From contig CANMRM010000002.1 of the NCBI GenBank assembly GCA_947500295.1, positions 496,001 to 560,000 of the forward strand: DNA of 64,000 bases, given 5' to 3'. Within the stretch, counting starts at the first letter, position 1. Every line of letters starts with the position of its first letter. Positions 4,823 through 16,022 of this stretch are shown here, one piece after another. Position numbers and translations under genes: made by a program. The notes beneath the pieces were generated by a model. The model ran no database searches and had not been told where the DNA came from. It saw only the letters and a program-made list of their open reading frames with translations. Source of the stretch: an uncultured Kordiimonas sp. (GTDB lineage Bacteria; Pseudomonadota; Alphaproteobacteria; Sphingomonadales; Kordiimonadaceae).

Positions 4823-5734
4823 ATGTTCAATTGGGATGACCTGAAATATTTTCTGGCGATGGCAGAGGAAGGCAGCTTGTCGGCGGCGGCACGCAAACTC
4901 AATGTCAGCCAGCCAACTTTGTCGCGGCGGCTGACGGCGCTTGAAGAAAGTGTCGGCTCCGATCTGTTTGCCCGTACGCGCACGGGTCTGGAAATGACTG
5001 CAGTAGGCGAGCGCCTGATCGACCATGCTCGCCATATGCGTGACGACGTTTATTCAATCGAGCGATTGATCACGGGGCATGACAGCAGCCTTCAGGGCAG
5101 TGTCGTGATTTCCTGCATTGAGATACTGGGCGCAGACTGGCTGGTGAAACATACAAGGCCTTTCCGCGAGCAATTTCCTGGCATAACCGTGGAGTTCAAG
5201 ATTGAAAATGCGACGTCAGACCTGCTGCGAAGAGAGGCAGATATTGCAATCAGAATGTTCAGACCGGTTCAAAACGACCTGATAGCCCGCAAAACCGGAA
5301 CAATGAAATACGGATACTATGCCAGCCGGGATTACATTGAAAAACACGGCATGCCGCAAAACACCAAGGACCTGACCGACCATGAATTCATTCTGCCGCA
5401 TGATGAAATACTGGCGCACACCAACAAGTTTGGCAAAAGGCCGTTTCATCCCAGAGGAAACATTGCCTTCAGATCAAACAACCTGATTTCGCTCGCATCA
5501 GCAGTTCGTGAAGGCTTCGGCATCGGTGCATACAGCTGCATTATGGCAGATGACGATCCGAACCTTGTTCGACTGTTTGGCGATCTGGTGGTGTTCAGTT
5601 CAGATATATGGCTGGTGAGCCACGCGGAACTACGCCGCAGTGCCAGAATCCGCGCCATGTATGATTTTCTGGGTGACCTTTTTTCAAAGAATGCAGCAGC
5701 ATTTGAAGGAAACAGTTCTGCAGGCAGCAGTTGA
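4823..5734 (+). CDS. LysR-family transcriptional regulator
   Basis: 303 residues with the standard LysR architecture. An N-terminal winged helix-turn-helix occupies residues 1-60 (LSAAARKLNVSQPTLSRRL as the recognition region), followed by a linker helix and a periplasmic-binding-protein-like effector domain (residues ~90-290) containing the typical LRREADIAIRM and SAVREGFGIGAYSC segments. It binds DNA as a dimer or tetramer and responds to a small molecule that cannot be named from sequence. It ends 6 bp from the convergent response-regulator gene and is divergent from a TPR gene, so the target is not obvious. The start is supported by GAGG 8 nt upstream. Confidence 0.9.
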   Translation: MFNWDDLKYFLAMAEEGSLSAAARKLNVSQPTLSRRLTALEESVGSDLFARTRTGLEMTAVGERLIDHARHMRDDVYSIERLITGHDSSLQGSVVISCIEILGADWLVKHTRPFREQFPGITVEFKIENATSDLLRREADIAIRMFRPVQNDLIARKTGTMKYGYYASRDYIEKHGMPQNTKDLTDHEFILPHDEILAHTNKFGKRPFHPRGNIAFRSNNLISLASAVREGFGIGAYSCIMADDDPNLVRLFGDLVVFSSDIWLVSHAELRRSARIRAMYDFLGDLFSKNAAAFEGNSSAGSS

Positions 5735-5740
5735 CGTGCC

Positions 5741-7861
5741 CTACTGAAGCTCGAACTCTGCTTCTACGATATTGCCATTACCTTGATATTCCAGCCTCGA
5801 AAAACAACCGTTGGCCATGGCAATCCCTCGCCCATGTTTTTTGTCGTGCCCATTCTCGCTGGACAGATAGGCTTTGTAATCGAACCCCTTTCCGGGGTCC
5901 TCAACCCTGAACACCAGAGATGTCTCTGTGTGCTCAACGTTCACAGTTGCATATCTCTGCCGATATTTTTCCGAGCTCCGCCGACGAACAACCTCTTCGT
6001 TGAGCAGGCCATTTTCGATCAGTTGTCCTTTTTCGTCGTGACCAATTTCAAGACATCCGTGTTCGATCGCATTCAGGAACAACTCCGACAAACCAATGGC
6101 CAGTGGAACGGGGTCACTGCTCGCCTGTGAAAACATCATGGCAAACTTCTGCGCTTCTTTTCTGGAAGCAAAACGATAGCTGCCCTCAAGGCTAAGAGCT
6201 TCTTCAGGTGCACGGTCCTCCAGCGCTTTTTTCAGTTTGCATATCCGAACAAAATCATCGGCTTCTTCCGCCAGAAATCGACGCAGTGCATCCACGCCCT
6301 TTTGTCCGTCAAAATATTTGACCCTGTCAAAACTGAGTATCGGGTCTGCCTTGTCGGGTTCGCCGTTCAATACAAGGACAACAGGCCCTCCCGCATCCAC
6401 AAATGCCGGGTCAATGATCGCATGCTTTTTCTGCGCGGCTTCATAGCCCGCAGCGCCATCAATTACCACCGCAGACAAGTTGGGAAATTCCGCCTGTTGC
6501 AGACCGCTCTCGTGCGTGGCCAGTGTCGTTCGCTCCACGTCAAGGCCCGGCGCCTGAAGGCCTTCATAATAGTCAAACAAAGGGCTGTCGTCGGTAGAAA
6601 TCACCACAACCTTCGGAGGCATCGACGAGTCCTGGTCAAAATTGTTCGTGACCTTCGATCGATGAATTGCAACCGCCGTCAAGTCATCCGGAAGATGTTC
6701 ATCCTGGTCGGCATAGAACCTGTCCAGAAGGCGTTTTACGACTGTGGTCCTGTCGCCGCTCTCTGCCGCCTCTTCGATCCAGGATACCAGTCCGTCTTCA
6801 CCAAGAATGGAGCCATCCGGCTGTTCGGCTTCAACAAGAACGTCAGAATAACAAAACATGCTCTCGCCCGGCTCAAGACGATCTGTCAGGTTTTCATACG
6901 TGGCGGATTTGACGATAGCGATCGGCAATCCCGAACTGTCCAGGGCGCGGCTGCCCGCAGGACCGAATATGATCGGTCTTGGCGCACCAGCACCTGCATA
7001 GGTTAGCTCGTCCGTATCACAATCAAGCACACCGTAGAACATGGTCGCAAACCGGCCCAGCGCAAAAGACCCAACCAGAGAGCTGTTCAAACTGGTAAGG
7101 AACTCGGCCGGGTCCAGTTTTTTGTCCTCAAATCTGGCCATGGTCGCGTGCAAACTAAACGTATTCAGGGCCGCGCCAACACCGTGACCTGTCACATCGA
7201 GCACATAGATGCCAAGTTTATTGCCGGGCAGTGGCCATGTACCCCACAGATCCCCTCCGAGCTCAAAAGATGCCTTGTAAAAAGCTTCGACTGAAGCACT
7301 GCCAATATCCTCAACCGCCGAAATGATATGATCTTCAGGCAAGAGTGAATGCTGCATTTCACGCGCCATTTTCAGCTCACTGTGCATCCGGTCCTGAAAA
7401 TCGCTCAGGCTCCTGATCAGAAACCTGTTTTCCAGGTGCATGCACACACGCGCCAGCAGTTCTGGGTGATTGATTGGTTTTGAAACGAAGTCTGTGGCAC
7501 CAACCGCAAAAACTTCGACACGTTCTTCCGCAGTTTCTGACGCAGACTGCACAAGGATAGGCAAACTGGCAGTCGCCGGGTCTGCCCTCAACTTTTTGCA
7601 GACGTCATACCCTGACAACCTGGGCATATTGATGTCCAGGATGACAAGGTCTGGCGCCGTTTCAGCAATACGCTGAAGGGCAACATCCCCGTCTTCTGCA
7701 AACGTAATATTCTTGAAGCCGCCCCGCTCAAGGCACATGCCAATCATCTTCCGCATGATCGGCATGTCATCCACCACCAGGATATGCGCGCTACTAACAC
7801 CTTCCGGCAGTGCTTCGTTGCGACCTGGCACAGGGATCGAGTCGTCAGATGTCTGGGGCAT
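5741..7861 (-). CDS. Receiver-PP2C phosphatase-pseudoreceiver-HATPase fusion (partner-switching regulator)
   Basis: 706 residues with four modules. Residues ~24-145 are a receiver domain with the acidic pair D31/D32, phospho-acceptor D76 (ILDINMP) and K128 (SKP). Residues ~190-400 are a SpoIIE/PP2C phosphatase with GGDLWG, DVTGHGVGAAL and PDDLTAVAI, so the metal-binding aspartates are kept. Residues ~415-545 look like a second, degenerate receiver fold. Residues ~570-706 are an RsbW-like HATPase with ELFLNAIEHG (N-box), EDPGKGFD and HGRGIAM. One protein therefore appears able both to dephosphorylate and to phosphorylate an anti-anti-sigma factor. The STAS gene lies 36 bp upstream in the same direction, the obvious substrate and operon partner. 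This resembles RsbU plus RsbW in one chain, under phosphorelay input. Confidence 0.9.
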   Translation of the reverse strand: MPQTSDDSIPVPGRNEALPEGVSSAHILVVDDMPIMRKMIGMCLERGGFKNITFAEDGDVALQRIAETAPDLVILDINMPRLSGYDVCKKLRADPATASLPILVQSASETAEERVEVFAVGATDFVSKPINHPELLARVCMHLENRFLIRSLSDFQDRMHSELKMAREMQHSLLPEDHIISAVEDIGSASVEAFYKASFELGGDLWGTWPLPGNKLGIYVLDVTGHGVGAALNTFSLHATMARFEDKKLDPAEFLTSLNSSLVGSFALGRFATMFYGVLDCDTDELTYAGAGAPRPIIFGPAGSRALDSSGLPIAIVKSATYENLTDRLEPGESMFCYSDVLVEAEQPDGSILGEDGLVSWIEEAAESGDRTTVVKRLLDRFYADQDEHLPDDLTAVAIHRSKVTNNFDQDSSMPPKVVVISTDDSPLFDYYEGLQAPGLDVERTTLATHESGLQQAEFPNLSAVVIDGAAGYEAAQKKHAIIDPAFVDAGGPVVLVLNGEPDKADPILSFDRVKYFDGQKGVDALRRFLAEEADDFVRICKLKKALEDRAPEEALSLEGSYRFASRKEAQKFAMMFSQASSDPVPLAIGLSELFLNAIEHGCLEIGHDEKGQLIENGLLNEEVVRRRSSEKYRQRYATVNVEHTETSLVFRVEDPGKGFDYKAYLSSENGHDKKHGRGIAMANGCFSRLEYQGNGNIVEAEFELQ

Positions 7862-7897
7862 GTATAAAACCCTCTTTACAAACCCCGAGGAACTGCC

Positions 7898-8197
7898 TTA
7901 ACCAGCGAGAAGGTCAGACAATTTTGTCAATTTAAGCATGCTGGCGACATGCCCTTGCGCGCCAGAAACGCTAAGCTTCCAGCCGGCTGTGTCGGCCTGT
8001 TCTTTGGCAATCAAAAACATACCAAGGCCAGCGGAGTCCACCATGCCCACATTTGTCAAATCGAATGTACAGGTATCGACATCACTTTCCGCCAATTCCT
8101 TCAAGATCTGGCGAAAACTAACATTCTCTGAAAACGTAATATCCCCGGTAAAAACAACAGTCGTGTCGCTGTCATTTTTTTCGATACGATATTCCAT
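7898..8197 (-). CDS. STAS-domain anti-anti-sigma factor
   Basis: 99 residues, a single STAS domain of the SpoIIAA/RsbV type. The conserved loop VGMVDSAGLGMFL carries the serine normally phosphorylated by the HATPase kinase. In the usual scheme the unphosphorylated form sequesters the kinase or anti-sigma partner, and the PP2C phosphatase restores it. I chose the ATG at 8197 because AAGGAAG sits just upstream and MEYRIEKNDSDTTVVF is a normal STAS beginning; the frame extends upstream to 8254 without support. It is the first gene of a two-gene unit with the receiver/phosphatase/kinase fusion. No sigma factor is encoded nearby, so the output target is elsewhere or is not a sigma factor. Confidence 0.88.
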   Translation of the reverse strand: MEYRIEKNDSDTTVVFTGDITFSENVSFRQILKELAESDVDTCTFDLTNVGMVDSAGLGMFLIAKEQADTAGWKLSVSGAQGHVASMLKLTKLSDLLAG

Positions 8198-8393
8198 GGT
8201 GCTTCCTTTTTTGCTCGGCCGTGGGTTTCGCCCCACGTTTAATAATGTTGACACTCAGCCCGCCCCCAAAAGCGAGTTCAAGTTAGGGGCAATCTAGATT
8301 GGAAGTGTTAAGCTAAATTTAACATGCCTCCAATCCGATAACCTAATTATTGCGATACTGTCACCGAAAAAACAATTGATAGTTGCAACTCTT

Positions 8394-9575
8394 CTAGGGA
8401 TTTTCTGCCCTCAAACGACGCGTCAGCCTCTGGAACGACAACAACAGGACAGCAACGAGAACGGCACCGGTCATAAACGGCAAGCCAACATTCAGGTCAA
8501 ACAATAGTCCGGTTACCATGGGCCCAAACGAACGCCCCAGGGCCTGCATTGATTGAGCAACCCCCATCACGGCACCGCGTTCGTTGTCCTGCGCCTGATG
8601 AGAAGCAAGTGACAGCGCTGATGCGTTGAAGAGTGCCGTACCAACACTTGTCAATGTGAGTGCAATGACGAGGAACAGGGGCTCTGGAAGCACGGCCAGA
8701 ATAATCAGTCCGCCGCCCATCAGGCCCAGCCCCACCCTAACCAGCATAACTTCCCCAAACCGATTGGCCAAAGGACCCACAAGGGTTCCCTGAACAATCA
8801 CCAGCGTAACGCCAATATAGATGAAAATATTGCGCATCTCGATGGGGCCCCAATCGAAATGAACCAAAATATATTTGGGAACAAGGGGTTCCATGAGAGC
8901 CAGGCAAAATGTGAAGGCCAGAATGAGGAAGCACAGTTTCAGCAAGACAGGATGGCGCGCAATCTTCTGAAATGCTGCGATACGGCTGGCGGAATCACCC
9001 TCAGCGCCCTGTTCAGCCGTAATTGGGTGGCGCGTTTCCTTCATGAGAAAGACCACCATGGCCGACCCCAAAAGGCACACAAGAGCCGCAGCTGATGCGG
9101 GTCCAAATATGCTTGCCGACCCTGCACTATCGCCTGCAATCGAGCCCCCAATTGCAGTTCCAACCACAAAAGAAAGCCCAATCGCTGCGCCAATAACACC
9201 CATTCCTTTTGTCCGGTTTTCCGGGGTTGTGATGTCAGAAACCGTCGCAAAAACGACGGCCAGCGAGCCGGCACACAAGCCTGCGCAAACCATTGTCAGG
9301 AAAAGTGCGATTGTACTGCCCGCAAACACTGCCATCGCTGTATAAGACAACGCTCCCATGAACAGAGCTGTAGCCAGCACTTTTTTCCGGCCCAGCCGAT
9401 CAGAAAGCCTTCCCCACTGAGGGCCAGCCAAAAACTGTGCAAGACTGTAGGCGGCAATGATGGGGGTCGAAAGGCTGTTCGACAGCCCCATGTTGCCCAA
9501 AACATACATGATTGCAGGCAGGAGCATGGCAAAACTGCCCATGATCACAAGTACAGAGGCAAACAGAACTGGCAT
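8394..9575 (-). CDS. MFS transporter, DHA1/tetracycline-resistance-like
   Basis: 393 residues with about 12 hydrophobic segments, the major facilitator fold. Motif A is clear in the loop after helix 2 (GPQWGRLSDRLGRKKVL), and the second half has a related loop (LVGPLANRFGE). The order of features, including the motif-C-like GAAIGLSFVVGTAIGG in helix 5, fits the TetA/DHA1 drug:H+ antiporter group. It probably acts as an inner-membrane exporter or permease of a small hydrophobic compound, but the substrate is unknown. It is monocistronic: 136 bp separate it from the TPR lipoprotein gene upstream and a 196-bp gap from the STAS gene downstream. Confidence 0.87.
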   Translation of the reverse strand: MPVLFASVLVIMGSFAMLLPAIMYVLGNMGLSNSLSTPIIAAYSLAQFLAGPQWGRLSDRLGRKKVLATALFMGALSYTAMAVFAGSTIALFLTMVCAGLCAGSLAVVFATVSDITTPENRTKGMGVIGAAIGLSFVVGTAIGGSIAGDSAGSASIFGPASAAALVCLLGSAMVVFLMKETRHPITAEQGAEGDSASRIAAFQKIARHPVLLKLCFLILAFTFCLALMEPLVPKYILVHFDWGPIEMRNIFIYIGVTLVIVQGTLVGPLANRFGEVMLVRVGLGLMGGGLIILAVLPEPLFLVIALTLTSVGTALFNASALSLASHQAQDNERGAVMGVAQSMQALGRSFGPMVTGLLFDLNVGLPFMTGAVLVAVLLLSFQRLTRRLRAENP

Positions 9576-9711: not shown

Positions 9712-12213
9712 TCAGTCCGATTGCCCGTCGCCGCTGGCGCTTTGCTCAGCTTCAGCCTGAAATCCAGTGATTTTATCTTCCAGCGCCTGATAGGTAATGG
9801 AGTTTCCCGCTGCCTCAAGATCCGAGAGCGCTTTGCGAACAACATCAGTGTCACCGGGTTCACTCTTGTCCGTTTGCACAATAGAGTTTGCGTACCGGAC
9901 AGCGTCATTGCCGCTCAGGCCAAGTTTTTCAGCGAGCCAAAGACCCAGCAACTGATTGCGTTTTGTACGAATTTCACCCGCGCGCTGTTCTTGGGCGGCT
10001 TCTTCTTCCGAACGTTGTCCCGCAGCCGCCAGAAGCTCTGACGTCGCCTGTTCCTGTTGTTTGAGTTCTTCAGCCCGCAATTTGCGATTTTCTTCTGCAA
10101 TCCGTTCCAGTTCTTCCATCAACGCCGTCTGATCATCTTCGGCATCCAGGACATCCCTCGATTGTTCCTTGATCGCTTCCTGTCGCTCTACCTCTTCCAG
10201 GCGCTGTTGCTCGCGCTCTGCCAGTCGCTCGGCCCTTGCCTGTTCATCGGCTTCTTCTTCGGCCTGCAACGCCGACTGCCACTCTTCGGTTTTCTCTTCG
10301 ATGTATTTGACAAAGTCGGGGTTATATTCACCAAGGCGTCTTGCTTGTGTGGCCATGGATACTGCCCGGGTATAGTAACCCAGCATCGCCATCGCCTCCG
10401 CCCGGTCCGCCAGGACAATCGGTGAATTGGGCAAGGCATCAACGGCGCGGGCCAGGAAGGGCAGCGCCGCCTCTGGGTCACCAGTTTCGATCAGGGAACG
10501 GCCATACATTGCCAAAACCCGGGGGTCTTCCGCCGCCAGGTCGATAAGGACTTTAAGGTCGGTCCTTGCTTTACTGTAGTCTTCCTTCTGGATGTAGGCG
10601 AACGCCCTATTTTTGAGTGCTGACTGATATTCCGGCACTTTGGCAATCGCCGAACTGTAGGCCTCAATTGCTTCGTCAAACTTCCTCTGCCGATGCAAGA
10701 TTGCGCCTTTCAGGTTTGCTGCCACTGTGCTTTCTGGATCGAGAACCATTAACTGGTTTAGTGCTGTCTGGGCTTGTTCCAGGTCACCCGACGCAAGAAA
10801 CATATTAGCTTTGTTCGTCAGGCTTTCAGCGTCGTCTTGATTGTCAGCATACATGGCATCCAACAGGGCCGTAGCGCCATCAAGGTCGTCATTCAGAAAC
10901 CGCGCGAAAGCCGCACGCGTCATCAGCTGTCGGACAACTTCGGGGTCTGCATTTTCGTCCTGTTCGGCGACAATGAGCGCTCGCTCGATGTACTTGCGGG
11001 CGGATGCCAGATCCCCCCGTCCCGCTGCCGCTGACGTGGCATGAACCAGTGCAGTCACATTGGAAGCTTCATCACCAATAAGCGGGATCAAAATCTGCAG
11101 GGCTTCAGCCGACTGTCCGCGGCGCGCCATCGAATCCGCCAACGCCAGACGGGTAGAATCATCATTTGGAAAAAAGAAGAGTGCCCTGCGCAAGTAAGGA
11201 ATGGCTGTAGAGTATTTTTCCAGCTCGTAGGTTGTTAACCCATATACCTGCGCTGCTCTTGGATACTCCCGGGTGAAGTCGCCGGTTCTGATTAAGAGGT
11301 CCTCAGCCTCATCAAGTTTCCCCTCTCCCACAAGCAAAAGCGCGGAATAATAACTTGCCATGGGATTGTTGGGTGTCGATGCGTAGATGGCGTCAAGCTG
11401 TTCGCGCGCCAGCTCGAAAGCATCCTGCGAAATAAGAATGCCCGCAAGCTCGAGCCGGGACAATAGATCAGACGGATTCACTTCCAGGGTTTTCTCGAAA
11501 AAGGCACGTGCTTCATCAACCTGACCGCTATAGCGCGCGACCATACCCTGCACATAGCTTATTACCGGATCATCTTTTTCCCGCGCAACCGCTTCTGTCA
11601 GGTTAAGGCTCGCCTGCTCCAGGTTGCCCCGCTGCAAATAGAACAAGGCCAGCGCAGTGTACCCGGTGAAATTATCGGCATTCTCTTCAACAGCCGCTTT
11701 ATAGAAAGTTTCTGCGCCTTCAAATTCTCCCAATGACATTAGAATGTCGCCGCGCAACACCAACGCGTTGAATTCGTCTTCTTCGGGCAGTTCGAGGCCG
11801 CGCAGGGCCTGCTCAGCGTCTTTATGCCTACCTTGCATGACCAAAGACTGCGCCAGCATAAGAGCGGTTGTCTCTTCCCCCACTCCGCGGTCACGCAGTT
11901 TATAAACTGTCTCTTCAGCAGCAATACCAGCGCCAAATTTGATGTATATTTCCCCAAGCAACAGCATGTGCTGGTTACTGGCAATGCCTTCGTCACGATA
12001 GTATTGCAGCGCGTCCAGCGCTTTTTGGTCTTCGCCTTCGTCAACGAACGCCTGCAAGTCCTCAACCGAGTATGATTCAAACAGCTCCCGTTTCTTGGCA
12101 ATTTCCTCGTCTTCGCCGCAAGCGAGCAGCAGAAAGGGCAGCACAACGGCAAAACACAAGCGACAAAAACCACTTTTGCCAGACTTTAAATCTGATTGGA
12201 TCATCGCTTTCAT
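9712..12213 (-). CDS. PrsT-like TPR lipoprotein with a C-terminal zeta/DUF1476 domain
   Basis: 833 residues. The N-terminus is a lipoprotein signal (FAVVLPFLLLAC, lipid-modified C32; no Asp at +2, so outer-membrane sorting is expected). Residues ~45-640 are about 15 TPR-type repeats, for example FYKAAVEENADNFTGYTALA and PYLRRALFFFPNDDSTRLAL. Residues ~655-745 are a charged coiled coil (EEADEQARAERLAEREQQ). Residues 749-824 match the zeta F1-ATPase inhibitor protein encoded at 15699-16022 without gaps (36 of 76 identical by eye). Size, lipobox and TPR array resemble PrsT of PEP-CTERM/exosortase systems, and a PEP-CTERM protein is divergently encoded next door. The zeta-type tail is not something I know from PrsT. 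The N-terminal inhibitory segment of zeta is not conserved in the fusion. An assembly or scaffolding role at the outer membrane is inference. Confidence 0.85.
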   Translation of the reverse strand: MKAMIQSDLKSGKSGFCRLCFAVVLPFLLLACGEDEEIAKKRELFESYSVEDLQAFVDEGEDQKALDALQYYRDEGIASNQHMLLLGEIYIKFGAGIAAEETVYKLRDRGVGEETTALMLAQSLVMQGRHKDAEQALRGLELPEEDEFNALVLRGDILMSLGEFEGAETFYKAAVEENADNFTGYTALALFYLQRGNLEQASLNLTEAVAREKDDPVISYVQGMVARYSGQVDEARAFFEKTLEVNPSDLLSRLELAGILISQDAFELAREQLDAIYASTPNNPMASYYSALLLVGEGKLDEAEDLLIRTGDFTREYPRAAQVYGLTTYELEKYSTAIPYLRRALFFFPNDDSTRLALADSMARRGQSAEALQILIPLIGDEASNVTALVHATSAAAGRGDLASARKYIERALIVAEQDENADPEVVRQLMTRAAFARFLNDDLDGATALLDAMYADNQDDAESLTNKANMFLASGDLEQAQTALNQLMVLDPESTVAANLKGAILHRQRKFDEAIEAYSSAIAKVPEYQSALKNRAFAYIQKEDYSKARTDLKVLIDLAAEDPRVLAMYGRSLIETGDPEAALPFLARAVDALPNSPIVLADRAEAMAMLGYYTRAVSMATQARRLGEYNPDFVKYIEEKTEEWQSALQAEEEADEQARAERLAEREQQRLEEVERQEAIKEQSRDVLDAEDDQTALMEELERIAEENRKLRAEELKQQEQATSELLAAAGQRSEEEAAQEQRAGEIRTKRNQLLGLWLAEKLGLSGNDAVRYANSIVQTDKSEPGDTDVVRKALSDLEAAGNSITYQALEDKITGFQAEAEQSASGDGQSD

Positions 12214-12363: not shown

Positions 12364-12466
12364 ATTGTACTATTTTTCGCAACAAGTAATAGAGATTGGG
12401 AAGTCGGGCGGCTGATGCGCTTTGTCAAGCGTAGTAGCTGCTTTTCTATTTTGGATTGGAAAATCG

Positions 12467-13189
12467 GTGCGTCCAATTGGAACAATTTGCAGGTCACTCT
12501 CCATCGGTTTGTCTTTGATGGGTTTGAGCAGCGTCATGTCTGCGCCAGCAAACGCAACATATTATTGGGATGTGACAGCAGACGCAGGAAGCTTTGCTCC
12601 TGTTGCTCTCGGCGATGACATAACACTGGATGCATGCAGCTCCCGCCTGAATGTCGCGAACAACCCCAGCGGCGCTGGCACGTCTATCTGCAATCTCGTT
12701 AACGTCTCGCTGTTCAGCGTAAACTGGTTTGCGAAAAACGTCACAACGGGTGCGTTTTCCTGGCTGACAGGTGGCTTGGGAAGCAATCAGAGCCCTAATC
12801 TCTACAGCCTTGCCAATGGAACCGCTGCAGCCAACAGCCAGACCACGACATCGACAGGCTCAGGCACGTTTTTTGACAGCGTTGGGACGTACGCAATTGG
12901 TGTCTATGTGGCGAGCACGACGACATCAACCTACTTCACGGAATCCATCAGCAACGGCGGTACGCCCTACAACTACACGGCTGCTTTCGGCGGTGATTTC
13001 ACAACTTCGCTCACCAACGCATTCTCCTACAACGGGTACCTGAACAATGCTGCGGCCTGGAGTTCCAATTTTACTGTCAGTGAGCCGGTAACGGTTCCCG
13101 AACCAGCGCCACTGCTTCTGTTGTTGCCTGCTATGGTTTGGATAGCGCGGCGTGAGCGCAAGCGAAGCCAGCAAAAGTTTCGGGCGTAA
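12467..13189 (+). CDS. PEP-CTERM sorting-domain protein
   Basis: About 240 residues. It has a Sec signal peptide (CRSLSIGLSLMGLSSVMS, cleavage after ANA), a Ser/Thr/Asn/Gly-rich mature region of low complexity (TYYWDVTADAG onward), and a textbook PEP-CTERM tail. The tail consists of the motif VPEPAP, a short hydrophobic helix (LLLLLPAMVW) and a basic end (RRERKRSQQKF). PEP-CTERM signals are recognised by exosortase, which cleaves them and passes the protein to the cell surface or extracellular matrix, usually with exopolysaccharide. No exosortase gene is in the window. The start is uncertain: GTG 12467 gives a normal signal peptide, while an in-frame TTG at 12422 adds 15 residues. A terminator follows directly. 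Confidence 0.85.
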   Translation: MRPIGTICRSLSIGLSLMGLSSVMSAPANATYYWDVTADAGSFAPVALGDDITLDACSSRLNVANNPSGAGTSICNLVNVSLFSVNWFAKNVTTGAFSWLTGGLGSNQSPNLYSLANGTAAANSQTTTSTGSGTFFDSVGTYAIGVYVASTTTSTYFTESISNGGTPYNYTAAFGGDFTTSLTNAFSYNGYLNNAAAWSSNFTVSEPVTVPEPAPLLLLLPAMVWIARRERKRSQQKFRA

Positions 13190-13281: not shown

Positions 13282-15540
13282 CTAGGCGTCTCTCAACTGG
13301 CTGCCAACAGGAAGCTCCCGAATGCGCGTGCCCGTCAGCTGGAAGATCGCATCCGTCAATGCCGGCGCAAGTGGCGGCACCGAGATTTCCCCGGTTCCAA
13401 ACACGTCTTCCCGCGAGCTCAGAATATGCACATCAATCTCGGGCGGCGCCATATCAATACGCATCATCTCATAGGTATCAAAGTTGGCGCGAATAGCCCG
13501 CCCCTGCTCCACCAGCGCATTCTGATTAAGCGTGGCAGACAAGGCATCATTGATACCTCCTTCAATTTGGGCACGCGCGCCATTTGGGTTGACACACAGG
13601 CCACAGTCAATCGCGGCCGTTACTTTTCTTACCCAGGGCTTGTCGTTTCGGATGGAGGCCTCAACCACCAGGGCGCAGTAGCTACCAAATGTAAAGTAAC
13701 CGGCAATTCCGTGCGCAAAGCCTTCCTTGATATTTTGCCGCCAGCCGGCCTGCTCTGCCGCCACTTTCAAACAATTCGCCAACTTCTGGGGACTCCAGGT
13801 CGGCCCGCCCCAATGCGGGTATTCAAGCTCTTCAATACCTTCAAGGTGTTTGAGCCGAAACTTTAGCGGATCTTCCCCAGCTGCATGGGCCAGCTCGTTC
13901 ATAAAGCTCTCAACGAAAAACCCCTGCTGCGATGGCATGGGGGCCCGCCAGGCTCCCTGCATGATATTCCAATCAACTGAATGGAAATCCAATTCAAAGT
14001 TGGGGACAATTCCACGCGGGAAGTTTCCTGTCCATATGGTCTCGCCATAACGCTCCTCGGGAGGCGGTCGGTCGCCATTTACGCTGGACGCATGAGCGGT
14101 TGTGTGATGCCAGGACGTTATTTTGCCAGTCTCATCCAGGCCGGCCCTGAGCCGCTGGCGAGACAGCAGACGAAACCCATCCACCGACATGTCACTCTCG
14201 CGGCTCCACATCAGCTTAACCGGCCGCCCAACCGCCTTTGATATCCAATAGCCCTCAAGGGCATAATCAGACCAAAGGCGGCGTCCAAAACTGCCGCCAG
14301 TGCGTGTCAGTTCAAAATCAATATCGGTCTGCGTCAGCCCTGAAGCGCCGGTCAAAAGTCTGATTGTGGTATAAGAATTGTGTCCGGGCTCGATAACGCG
14401 AACTTTGTCATCCTGTGCATAGATGATGCAATTCATGGGTTCCATGGTGGCATGAGCAAGGGAAGGCAACGCATACTCGACATCTACCACGACCGCACAG
14501 TCTTCTATGGCATCCTTGCCTTGTCCGTCACGTACAACAGTTTGCCCATCCTTTTGCAGCAGGTCGTGCAGCCTGGCATGCATGCCCACCGTACTGTCCT
14601 CCTCCCCCACCGGTGGCTGGTTCCAGGTCACTTTAAGGGCTTGCAGGCCCTTTTGGGCAGCCCAATAACTATCCGCAACCACGGCAACTGCATGCTTCTG
14701 GTAGGCTATGCCGTTTGGCGCATCAAGGTTGACAATCTCCACGACGCCATTGACCGCTCTGGCGGCTGTGTCGTCAACCTTTCCAATGGTGGCAGTGTAG
14801 GTGGGTGCATGCACAATGGTGGCGTACAGCATGCCCTCCATTTCGGCATCAATGCCAAAAACAGCTGACCCATCAACAACTTCTCGGCTTGCCGTGTTTT
14901 TACGCTCAGAGCCTATGATTGTGAAATCATCCGAAGTTTTCAACGCCGTGTCCACCCACGTTTCCGGGGAAGGAAAAGGTTTTTCAGCAGCAAGGGCCGC
15001 AATTTCCGAGAAGGGAATCCGCCTATCTGTATTGCGCACTTCGATGTGGGAGTTGATAGTCATCAATCGACCAACTTCCACACCTAAATGCTCTGAAGCA
15101 GCCTCAAGAAGAACCTGCCTTGTGACCGCCGCTATTTCCCTGACTGGCCGCCAGGAACGGCGCGTTGTAAAACTGCCACCTCCGCCCTGTGGGCCGTATG
15201 CCCAGCGGTAGCGACCATTTGGCAGTCGCCTTGATTTCACAGGCAACTGCTTAACGGTAAGTTGATCAAAATCAGCACCCAGTTCTTCGGCAATCAACAT
15301 TGTCGTCGTCACATGCATGCCGGAACCGATTTCTGGCGACGGTGCACCGACGACTATAGAGTTGTCAGGATTGATCCTGATGTAAGGACCTATATCGCCC
15401 GAGAAATTCAGGGTTTCGGTTTCGCCGCCCTCAGCGAGCAAAGCTGCACGGGCTCCATCCGCAACAATCAGGGCACCTGTGCCCGCTATCAACTTGATTA
15501 CCGACCTTCGGCTCATTTCCGGTTTTGACTGAATGTTCAT
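13282..15540 (-). CDS. Tat-exported molybdopterin-binding oxidoreductase, large subunit (IorB-like)
   Basis: 752 residues of the xanthine dehydrogenase/isoquinoline 1-oxidoreductase beta-subunit family, which binds molybdopterin cytosine dinucleotide and hydroxylates aldehydes or N-heterocycles. The N-terminus carries a twin-arginine signal (SRRSVIKLIAGTGALIVA), so the folded cofactor-loaded enzyme is exported to the periplasm. The family regions are intact: GGGSFTTRRSW, GGSFGRRLWSDYALEG, and the C-terminal GTGEISVPPLAPALTDAIF carrying the likely catalytic glutamate. A partner small [2Fe-2S] subunit normally encoded alongside is missing here, as are Moco maturation genes; the partner may be elsewhere. 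A palindrome upstream suggests repression by a dimeric regulator. Confidence 0.88.
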   Translation of the reverse strand: MNIQSKPEMSRRSVIKLIAGTGALIVADGARAALLAEGGETETLNFSGDIGPYIRINPDNSIVVGAPSPEIGSGMHVTTTMLIAEELGADFDQLTVKQLPVKSRRLPNGRYRWAYGPQGGGGSFTTRRSWRPVREIAAVTRQVLLEAASEHLGVEVGRLMTINSHIEVRNTDRRIPFSEIAALAAEKPFPSPETWVDTALKTSDDFTIIGSERKNTASREVVDGSAVFGIDAEMEGMLYATIVHAPTYTATIGKVDDTAARAVNGVVEIVNLDAPNGIAYQKHAVAVVADSYWAAQKGLQALKVTWNQPPVGEEDSTVGMHARLHDLLQKDGQTVVRDGQGKDAIEDCAVVVDVEYALPSLAHATMEPMNCIIYAQDDKVRVIEPGHNSYTTIRLLTGASGLTQTDIDFELTRTGGSFGRRLWSDYALEGYWISKAVGRPVKLMWSRESDMSVDGFRLLSRQRLRAGLDETGKITSWHHTTAHASSVNGDRPPPEERYGETIWTGNFPRGIVPNFELDFHSVDWNIMQGAWRAPMPSQQGFFVESFMNELAHAAGEDPLKFRLKHLEGIEELEYPHWGGPTWSPQKLANCLKVAAEQAGWRQNIKEGFAHGIAGYFTFGSYCALVVEASIRNDKPWVRKVTAAIDCGLCVNPNGARAQIEGGINDALSATLNQNALVEQGRAIRANFDTYEMMRIDMAPPEIDVHILSSREDVFGTGEISVPPLAPALTDAIFQLTGTRIRELPVGSQLRDA

Positions 15541-15698: not shown

Positions 15699-16022
15699 TT
15701 AAACCTCAGACATGATCTGGGATTTAGCTTCATCCATGAAGGAGTTGAGCTTCTTTTCAATCTCCGCGTCCGTCATGTTCACGTCGCTTTTTTCAAGATC
15801 GGATGCCACTTTGCGCACCACATCAGCATCACCCTCTTCCTCAAGGTCCGCCGCCACAATCGAGCCTGCGTATTCTTTTACAGCATCACCGCTCAGCCCC
15901 ATTTCGCCTGCAAGCCATTCGCCGAACAACCGGTTGCGGCGTGCTCTGGCACGAAACATCAGGTCGGCGTCATGAGCAAACTTGTCTTCAAAGGCTTTTT
16001 CGCGGCTGTCAAAAGTGGTCAT
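15699..16022 (-). CDS. F1-ATPase inhibitor zeta subunit (DUF1476)
   Basis: 107 residues, full length for DUF1476, the alphaproteobacterial zeta protein. In Paracoccus zeta binds F1-ATPase and blocks ATP hydrolysis through its disordered N-terminus. Here the N-terminal segment FDSREKAFEDKFAHDADL matches the inhibitory region, followed by the four-helix bundle with RRNRLFGEWLAGEMGLSG, YAGSIVAADLEEEGDADVV and TDAEIEKKLNSFMDEA. The protein is cytoplasmic, monocistronic, with its own terminator, and divergent from the purine operon. The same bundle recurs at the C-terminus of the TPR lipoprotein 3.5 kb away. Confidence 0.93.
   Translation of the reverse strand: MTTFDSREKAFEDKFAHDADLMFRARARRNRLFGEWLAGEMGLSGDAVKEYAGSIVAADLEEEGDADVVRKVASDLEKSDVNMTDAEIEKKLNSFMDEAKSQIMSEV

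Follow-up and report, generated by a model that had tools for sequence, protein, structure and literature searches.

The zeta subunit (PF07345, DUF1476) is described, in the accessible text of two papers, as a family confined to the Alphaproteobacteria and a subunit of their F1FO-ATPase (PMC9317440, PMC10469736). The same texts mention a further role proposed for zeta in Zymomonas (PMC9317440, PMC10469736), and non-inhibitory forms are known, for example in Sinorhizobium (PMC10469736). A search of the open-access literature, in the portions of the papers available, found no fused or exported form of zeta. In Aquincola, according to the accessible part of the report, prsT is required for floc formation and the neighbouring PEP-CTERM gene pepA is involved (PMC9850573). 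LbcA, a TPR lipoprotein, is described in its abstract as an adaptor for the CtpA protease whose spiral might wrap and deliver the substrate (PMC8764530).

The window analyzed here is the whole 64,000-nucleotide stretch from an uncultured Kordiimonas sp., labeled G000 in our genome survey. It encodes a TPR lipoprotein with a zeta-like tail on the minus strand at 9712..12213, an intact open reading frame of 833 aa matching TPR families and PF07345. The signal peptide and lipobox (LLAC, Cys32) were read directly from the sequence at residues 1-32 (12118..12213). A TPR superhelix follows at residues 33-640 (10294..12117), assigned from Pfam TPR families and from model helices running from 36 to 627. 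Residues 641-745 (9979..10293) form a charged helical arm, placed by alignment and helical in both models, and the zeta-like bundle occupies residues 746-824 (9742..9978) by profile, BLASTP and predicted fold. The earlier note had placed the tail at 9742-9969 on the minus strand, residues 749-824 of the 833-aa frame, and this position was correct, as was its reading of a lipobox. The window's TPR copy shows the lipobox pattern, and so do 11 of 13 others that were scanned, including the five other fused ones; the remaining two have a cysteine at the equivalent place with an off-pattern box. Cys32 is the sole cysteine of the mature fused protein, and past residue 60 the best 19-residue window reached a hydrophobicity of 1.22 compared to 2.11 for the signal peptide. 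The lipobox suggests that the fused protein is exported and lipidated. Full-length AlphaFold2 modeling gave a pLDDT of 87.7 and a pTM of 0.58, with the arm in three pieces and low confidence at 684-695 and 731-733; in the other model the arm was part of a single unbroken helix (641-763).

Homology of the tail to zeta was assessed by profile, pairwise alignment and predicted fold. PF07345 matched the whole fused protein with an E value of 1.7e-17 (64.1 bits) and the tail alone with 1.8e-19 (70.4 bits), against a curated cut-off of 25. At an E value of 0.001 the window's own genome has two PF07345 matches, the fused tail and a stand-alone zeta of 107 aa at 15699..16022 on the minus strand (E 3e-38), which is likely kin of the tail's source. 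BLASTP aligned residues 749-823 of the fused protein with residues 26-100 of this zeta without gaps and with 36 of 75 identities. The earlier count by eye, 36 of 76, was therefore right about the gapless alignment and one residue too long. Smith-Waterman alignment of the tail with zeta scored 172, and 2,000 shuffled tails gave a mean of 28.9 (sd 5.6) and a maximum of 65, so the likeness is not due to chance. Searched by sequence, the tail alone found the solved zeta structure 2ll0 (E 7.5e-12) and a profile built from six fused tails found the solved zeta structures (E 4.3e-14). The predicted fold of the tail is a four-helix bundle like the zeta NMR structures, closest to 2kzc, 2ll0 and 7vkv. 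The earlier note had made its proposal that the tail is a zeta bundle depend on a PF07345 match and a zeta-like predicted fold, and sequence and predicted fold both bore it out.

The inhibitory N-terminal segment is absent from the window's fused protein, as had been proposed. PF07345 is matched there from profile position 22-24 onward, the earlier part of zeta has no counterpart, and the residues before the match do not resemble zeta. Across the six fused copies the match starts at 22 (G000), 19 (G018), 16 (G013), 26 (G014), 9 (G017) and 16 (G003), and the copies of G017, G013 or G003 may retain a weak N-terminal remnant. Residue conservation was scored for residues present in at least 85% of 46 zetas, from zeta position 25 on, with the tails trimmed to four residues before the R-N pair. 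Sixteen of these persist in five or all six tails (R29, N30, G34, W36, A38, G42, Y51, D59, E62, G64, D65, D67, R70, K71, D75 and A99, zeta numbering), L32 and V/I55 are partly kept, and A27, R28, E61, V68 (to similar residues) and Q102 are lost. None of the six tails has a phenylalanine at the counterpart of zeta F23. Inhibition of F1 by the tail is unlikely because the inhibitory segment is missing and the lipobox suggests export. Because the tail is clearly homologous to an F1 inhibitor, it might still act on the F1-ATPase, say as part of a precursor or of a form that stays unexported, but we consider this barely credible given that the window's copy lacks the N-terminal part, that the near-universal junction residues A27 and R28 are lost, that the fused protein carries a lipobox and that an intact zeta gene lies nearby.

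Five of the six fused tails retain the G-D-x-D-x-x-R-K motif that is common in zeta; that of G017 has N in place of the first D. The zeta body reportedly binds nucleotide, and retention of the motif would fit a tail that senses a small ligand, its bundle perhaps regulating the envelope scaffold formed by the TPR part. The motif may merely hold the fold, however, and free nucleotide is expected to be scarce outside the cytoplasm, which counts against ligand sensing and leaves it an improbable, though live, rival. Other residues are proper to the fused tails and common among them, for example T66, A72, A79 and Q86. Some residues that vary in zeta are invariant in the fused tails; like the long charged helical arm, they would suit self-contact, and the tail could then be a putative self-association domain that dimerizes or oligomerizes the TPR lipoprotein without contacting any other protein. 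We regard self-association as unlikely but also as a live rival, and with a somewhat stronger claim than ligand sensing.

Searching with the fused-tail profile detected the fusion in 6 of the 19 genomes of the genus (G000, G018, G013, G014, G017 and G003) at 139-150 bits. The survey covered 396 genomes of the order, and none of the 377 outside the genus had a second match; non-fused matches reached at most 87 bits among the matches listed, which extend down to about 67 bits. Frames of 421, 353 and 290 aa (G544, G543 and G665) were also listed in this survey. PF07345 itself was found in 55 of 59 related genomes, the window's own included, and frames longer than 800 aa turned up in six of these 59 genomes, all in the window's genus. 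The fusion is present in Kordiimonas aquimaris JCM 16665 and absent from K. gwangyangensis DSM 19435; the other relatives include MAGs.

At the level of the class, 247 of 385 genomes (own genome included) had a PF07345 match. Five frames of at least 390 aa (397-745 aa) among the class matches listed were rejected as fusions, because the match spans the entire profile from a Met onward, as expected of plain zeta genes in G+C-rich open frames. Sixteen class genomes (G000 excluded) have two matches, and the eight places read out of their 32 PF07345 places held short proteins or a zeta starting at its own Met, none with the look of a TPR lipoprotein; the frames at the other places are 61-206 aa long. 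For 80 of 88 further single-match genomes the longest frame was 473 aa (G410), followed by 277, 252 and 244 aa, and the match covers the profile from position 1 in all four; the class listing stands without the rows of G117, G171, G248, G272, G321, G362, G403 and G420. A rare further fusion may exist elsewhere. Second zeta copies were seen at L103, L104 and L106 in other Alphaproteobacteria, with match starts at 25, 28 and 34 and a weak match (26.7 bits) at L106. Like the fused tail these have little or no N-terminus, but unlike the fused protein their frames are short (98-203 aa) and lack a TPR part.

The origin of the fusion was assessed from tail-less relatives and from trees. A tail-less TPR gene, 37-40% identical, lies beside zeta at the equivalent locus in G010, G016, G012, G005 and G001. 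When the six fused and eight tail-less proteins were aligned, the fused copies added a segment around 691-716 and the bundle. The fused bodies formed one clade in the body tree (support 100/100) and the fused tails formed one clade in the tail/zeta tree (99/100), and as both trees unite the six copies, the fusion is, on this phylogenetic reading, of single origin. In the zeta tree a branch with support of 99/92 separated 28 zetas of other genera from the side bearing the tails, which also holds the zetas of the genus and two others of its family; the tails sit on a long branch, and the tree fixed neither its position among the zetas of the genus nor the parent zeta. The earlier note had proposed local duplication and capture. 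Synteny, with tail-less copies adjoining zeta in sister species, makes local capture likely and the genus side of the tree agrees with it, although the trees did not single out the neighboring zeta as parent. The TPR gene occurs in tandem copies in G001 and G007, showing that the locus duplicates and making local copying a natural route for the tail. Comparison of the 3' stretches of the fused gene and the zeta gene gave no convincing DNA trace of duplication, and we infer this route from the surroundings of the genes. A species tree from purC, purS and purL, built without G006 and G015, placed the six fused genomes and G009 on one branch (99/98), in a tree where the outgroup is scattered, the genus is not one clade and G009 is represented by 19% of columns.

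Constraint on the tail was measured in all 15 pairwise comparisons of the fused genes. Tail pN was 0.25-0.39 and pS 0.67-1.04, values that do not give a proper dN/dS ratio because synonymous sites are saturated. The adjoining linker (717-745) had a pN of 0.37-0.64 and an identity of 4-52%, and the arm segment before it (691-716) was better kept at 36-88% identity. In the closest pair (G000-G018) the tail is 58% identical compared to 81% for the TPR body, with a pN of 0.34 compared to 0.11. The tail could be read as a functionless passenger, the relic of a chance read-through: it is limited to one clade, it outpaces the body in the closest pair and G009, inside the fused clade, lacks both genes of the TPR/PEP-CTERM pair described below. 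The frame of the tail is nevertheless open in all six fused copies and the tail is more strongly conserved than the linker before it despite the synonymous saturation. The passenger reading is thus already disfavored by the pN/pS and identity comparison, and we consider it very improbable. The tail looks to be kept by selection.

The fused gene is paired with a divergent gene for a PEP-CTERM-like protein, its likely partner, at 12422..13189 on the plus strand, which starts 209 bases from the TPR start. This gene was recognized in a motif scan by VPEP, a hydrophobic stretch and a basic cluster at the end. Its product scored below both family cut-offs (TIGR02595, 9.1 bits against 16; PF07589, 7.9 against 20.7), so the label rests on the motif and on relatives, among them the homologue beside the G018 fused gene, which scores 22.8. 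In the motif scan 12 of the 15 TPR copies examined had a divergent PEP-CTERM-like gene at a distance of 96-336 bases. Two of the misses have candidates of another kind, a PF07589 match beside the TPR gene at a contig end (L055) and a partial homologue (L070, where the TPR start was estimated by hand); no PEP-CTERM-like gene was found by the scan beside the third copy, L059b. Among 20 fetched loci, a chosen set with three from other genera and two near-identical members (L060 and L063), both genes were present in 12, neither in 6 and one alone in 0, with L056 and L071 set aside as showing less than 500 bases after zeta. G002 lacks the pair at zeta and has one elsewhere in its genome. At L072 and L064 (G009 and G011) neither gene lies between zeta and the MFS gene, as if the pair were gained or lost as a unit. 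L065 and L059 were observed to have two TPR lipoprotein genes each at the zeta locus, and those of L065 are each accompanied by a separate divergent PEP-CTERM-like gene.

Across the genus, 12 of 20 PEP-CTERM matches are, by our own cross-reading, no more than about 2 kb away from a PrsT-like TPR match, and all 19 genomes have an exosortase. The two exosortase matches of the window's own genome are on contigs C7 and C5, and the window is on C2. The description of the fused protein as PrsT-like held loosely. It scored 197.9 bits to TIGR02917 (PrsT), below the curated cut-off of 312.2, and the true PrsT of this genome (409.2 bits) is encoded on another contig, beside genes that we labeled sugar-transferase and polysaccharide-export-like. 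About 2.7 kb from the true prsT we also observed a PEP-CTERM protein of 798 aa that contains an extended proline-rich repeat region (L096:5584-7980).

The remaining neighbors differ in how widely they are shared. Between zeta and the gene pair lies a molybdopterin-binding dehydrogenase-like gene (13282..15540, minus strand; Pfam MoCoBD_1 and MoCoBD_2), found among the 20 fetched loci, besides the window, only in that of G018; by our own reading its N-terminus resembles a twin-arginine signal (SRRSVIK). Downstream of the fused gene is an MFS transporter (8394..9575, minus strand; PF07690), with a relative in 10 of the 12 fetched loci that have the TPR gene. Adjoining the MFS gene, 4823-8254 of the window encodes a LysR-like regulator (our label), a SpoIIE/response-regulator phosphatase and a STAS protein, and this block was seen in 7 of the 20 fetched loci (L053, L054, L055, L057, L058, L064 and L072).

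The explanation we favor, with about even confidence, is that the fused protein serves its PEP-CTERM-like neighbor as a PrsT-like envelope scaffold to which the zeta body adds a docking head. Such a PrsT-related TPR scaffold, anchored by lipid outside the cytoplasm, would be encoded divergently from its PEP-CTERM-like client, which the neighboring protein probably is. Within one Kordiimonas clade a zeta copy, most probably of the neighboring gene, would have fused in a single event to the TPR gene at its 3' end, leaving out the inhibitory zeta N-terminus. The product would be a TPR superhelix leading through a long charged helical arm to a four-helix zeta bundle at the tip. Apparently exported and without the inhibitory segment, this bundle could not easily reach or inhibit F1. 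It would most likely, we infer, dock a candidate envelope partner (the PEP-CTERM protein, a sorting component or a polysaccharide component), with the client held by the TPR part. The earlier suggestion that the tail has been given another job, probably protein-protein contact, would be in keeping with such docking. The divergent PEP-CTERM-like gene, the single origin of the fusion, the tail-less copies and the signs of constraint go beyond what that note contained. That the zeta body is an envelope sensor or clamp, unrelated to F1, which governs how the PrsT-like scaffold handles its cognate PEP-CTERM protein is a more tentative idea that we think possible but doubtful.

An internal regulator thus seems to be reused outside the cytoplasm in some marine Kordiimonas. 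A zeta descendant that is constrained, apparently exported and stripped of the inhibitory part would demonstrate the usefulness of the body alone and open the way to asking what the zeta body does. The fused genomes also hold an ordinary zeta, and four of them (G013, G018, G003 and G017) hold further tail-less TPR relatives, which would make it feasible to separate out what the tail contributes. Dedicated TPR-lipoprotein/PEP-CTERM pairs in Kordiimonas could also help explain how PrsT-like proteins function.

Compared to the zeta subunit of the alphaproteobacterial F1FO-ATPase, the tail has a homologous four-helix body with most core residues in common. It differs in that the inhibitory N-terminus is missing from the window's copy and several near-universal residues are lost, and whereas zeta is a small cytoplasmic protein, the tail sits on an 833-aa TPR protein with a predicted export signal and lipobox. 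The likeness to PrsT lies in a TPR lipoprotein with its lipoprotein signal, a score of 198 bits and, perhaps, the place beside a PEP-CTERM-like gene, whose product scores below the family cut-offs here; unlike PrsT, the fused protein falls below the family cut-off, is shorter, carries a zeta-like tail and is encoded outside the exopolysaccharide-type cluster that contains the true prsT of this genome. In Aquincola pepA is upstream of prsT, according to the accessible part of the report (PMC9850573), whereas the PEP-CTERM-like neighbor here is divergent. Compared by description, the lipoprotein TPR spiral of LbcA (PMC8764530) works like the scaffold proposed here, and unlike the gene pair of this locus, LbcA is presented in its abstract without mention of a PEP-CTERM link.
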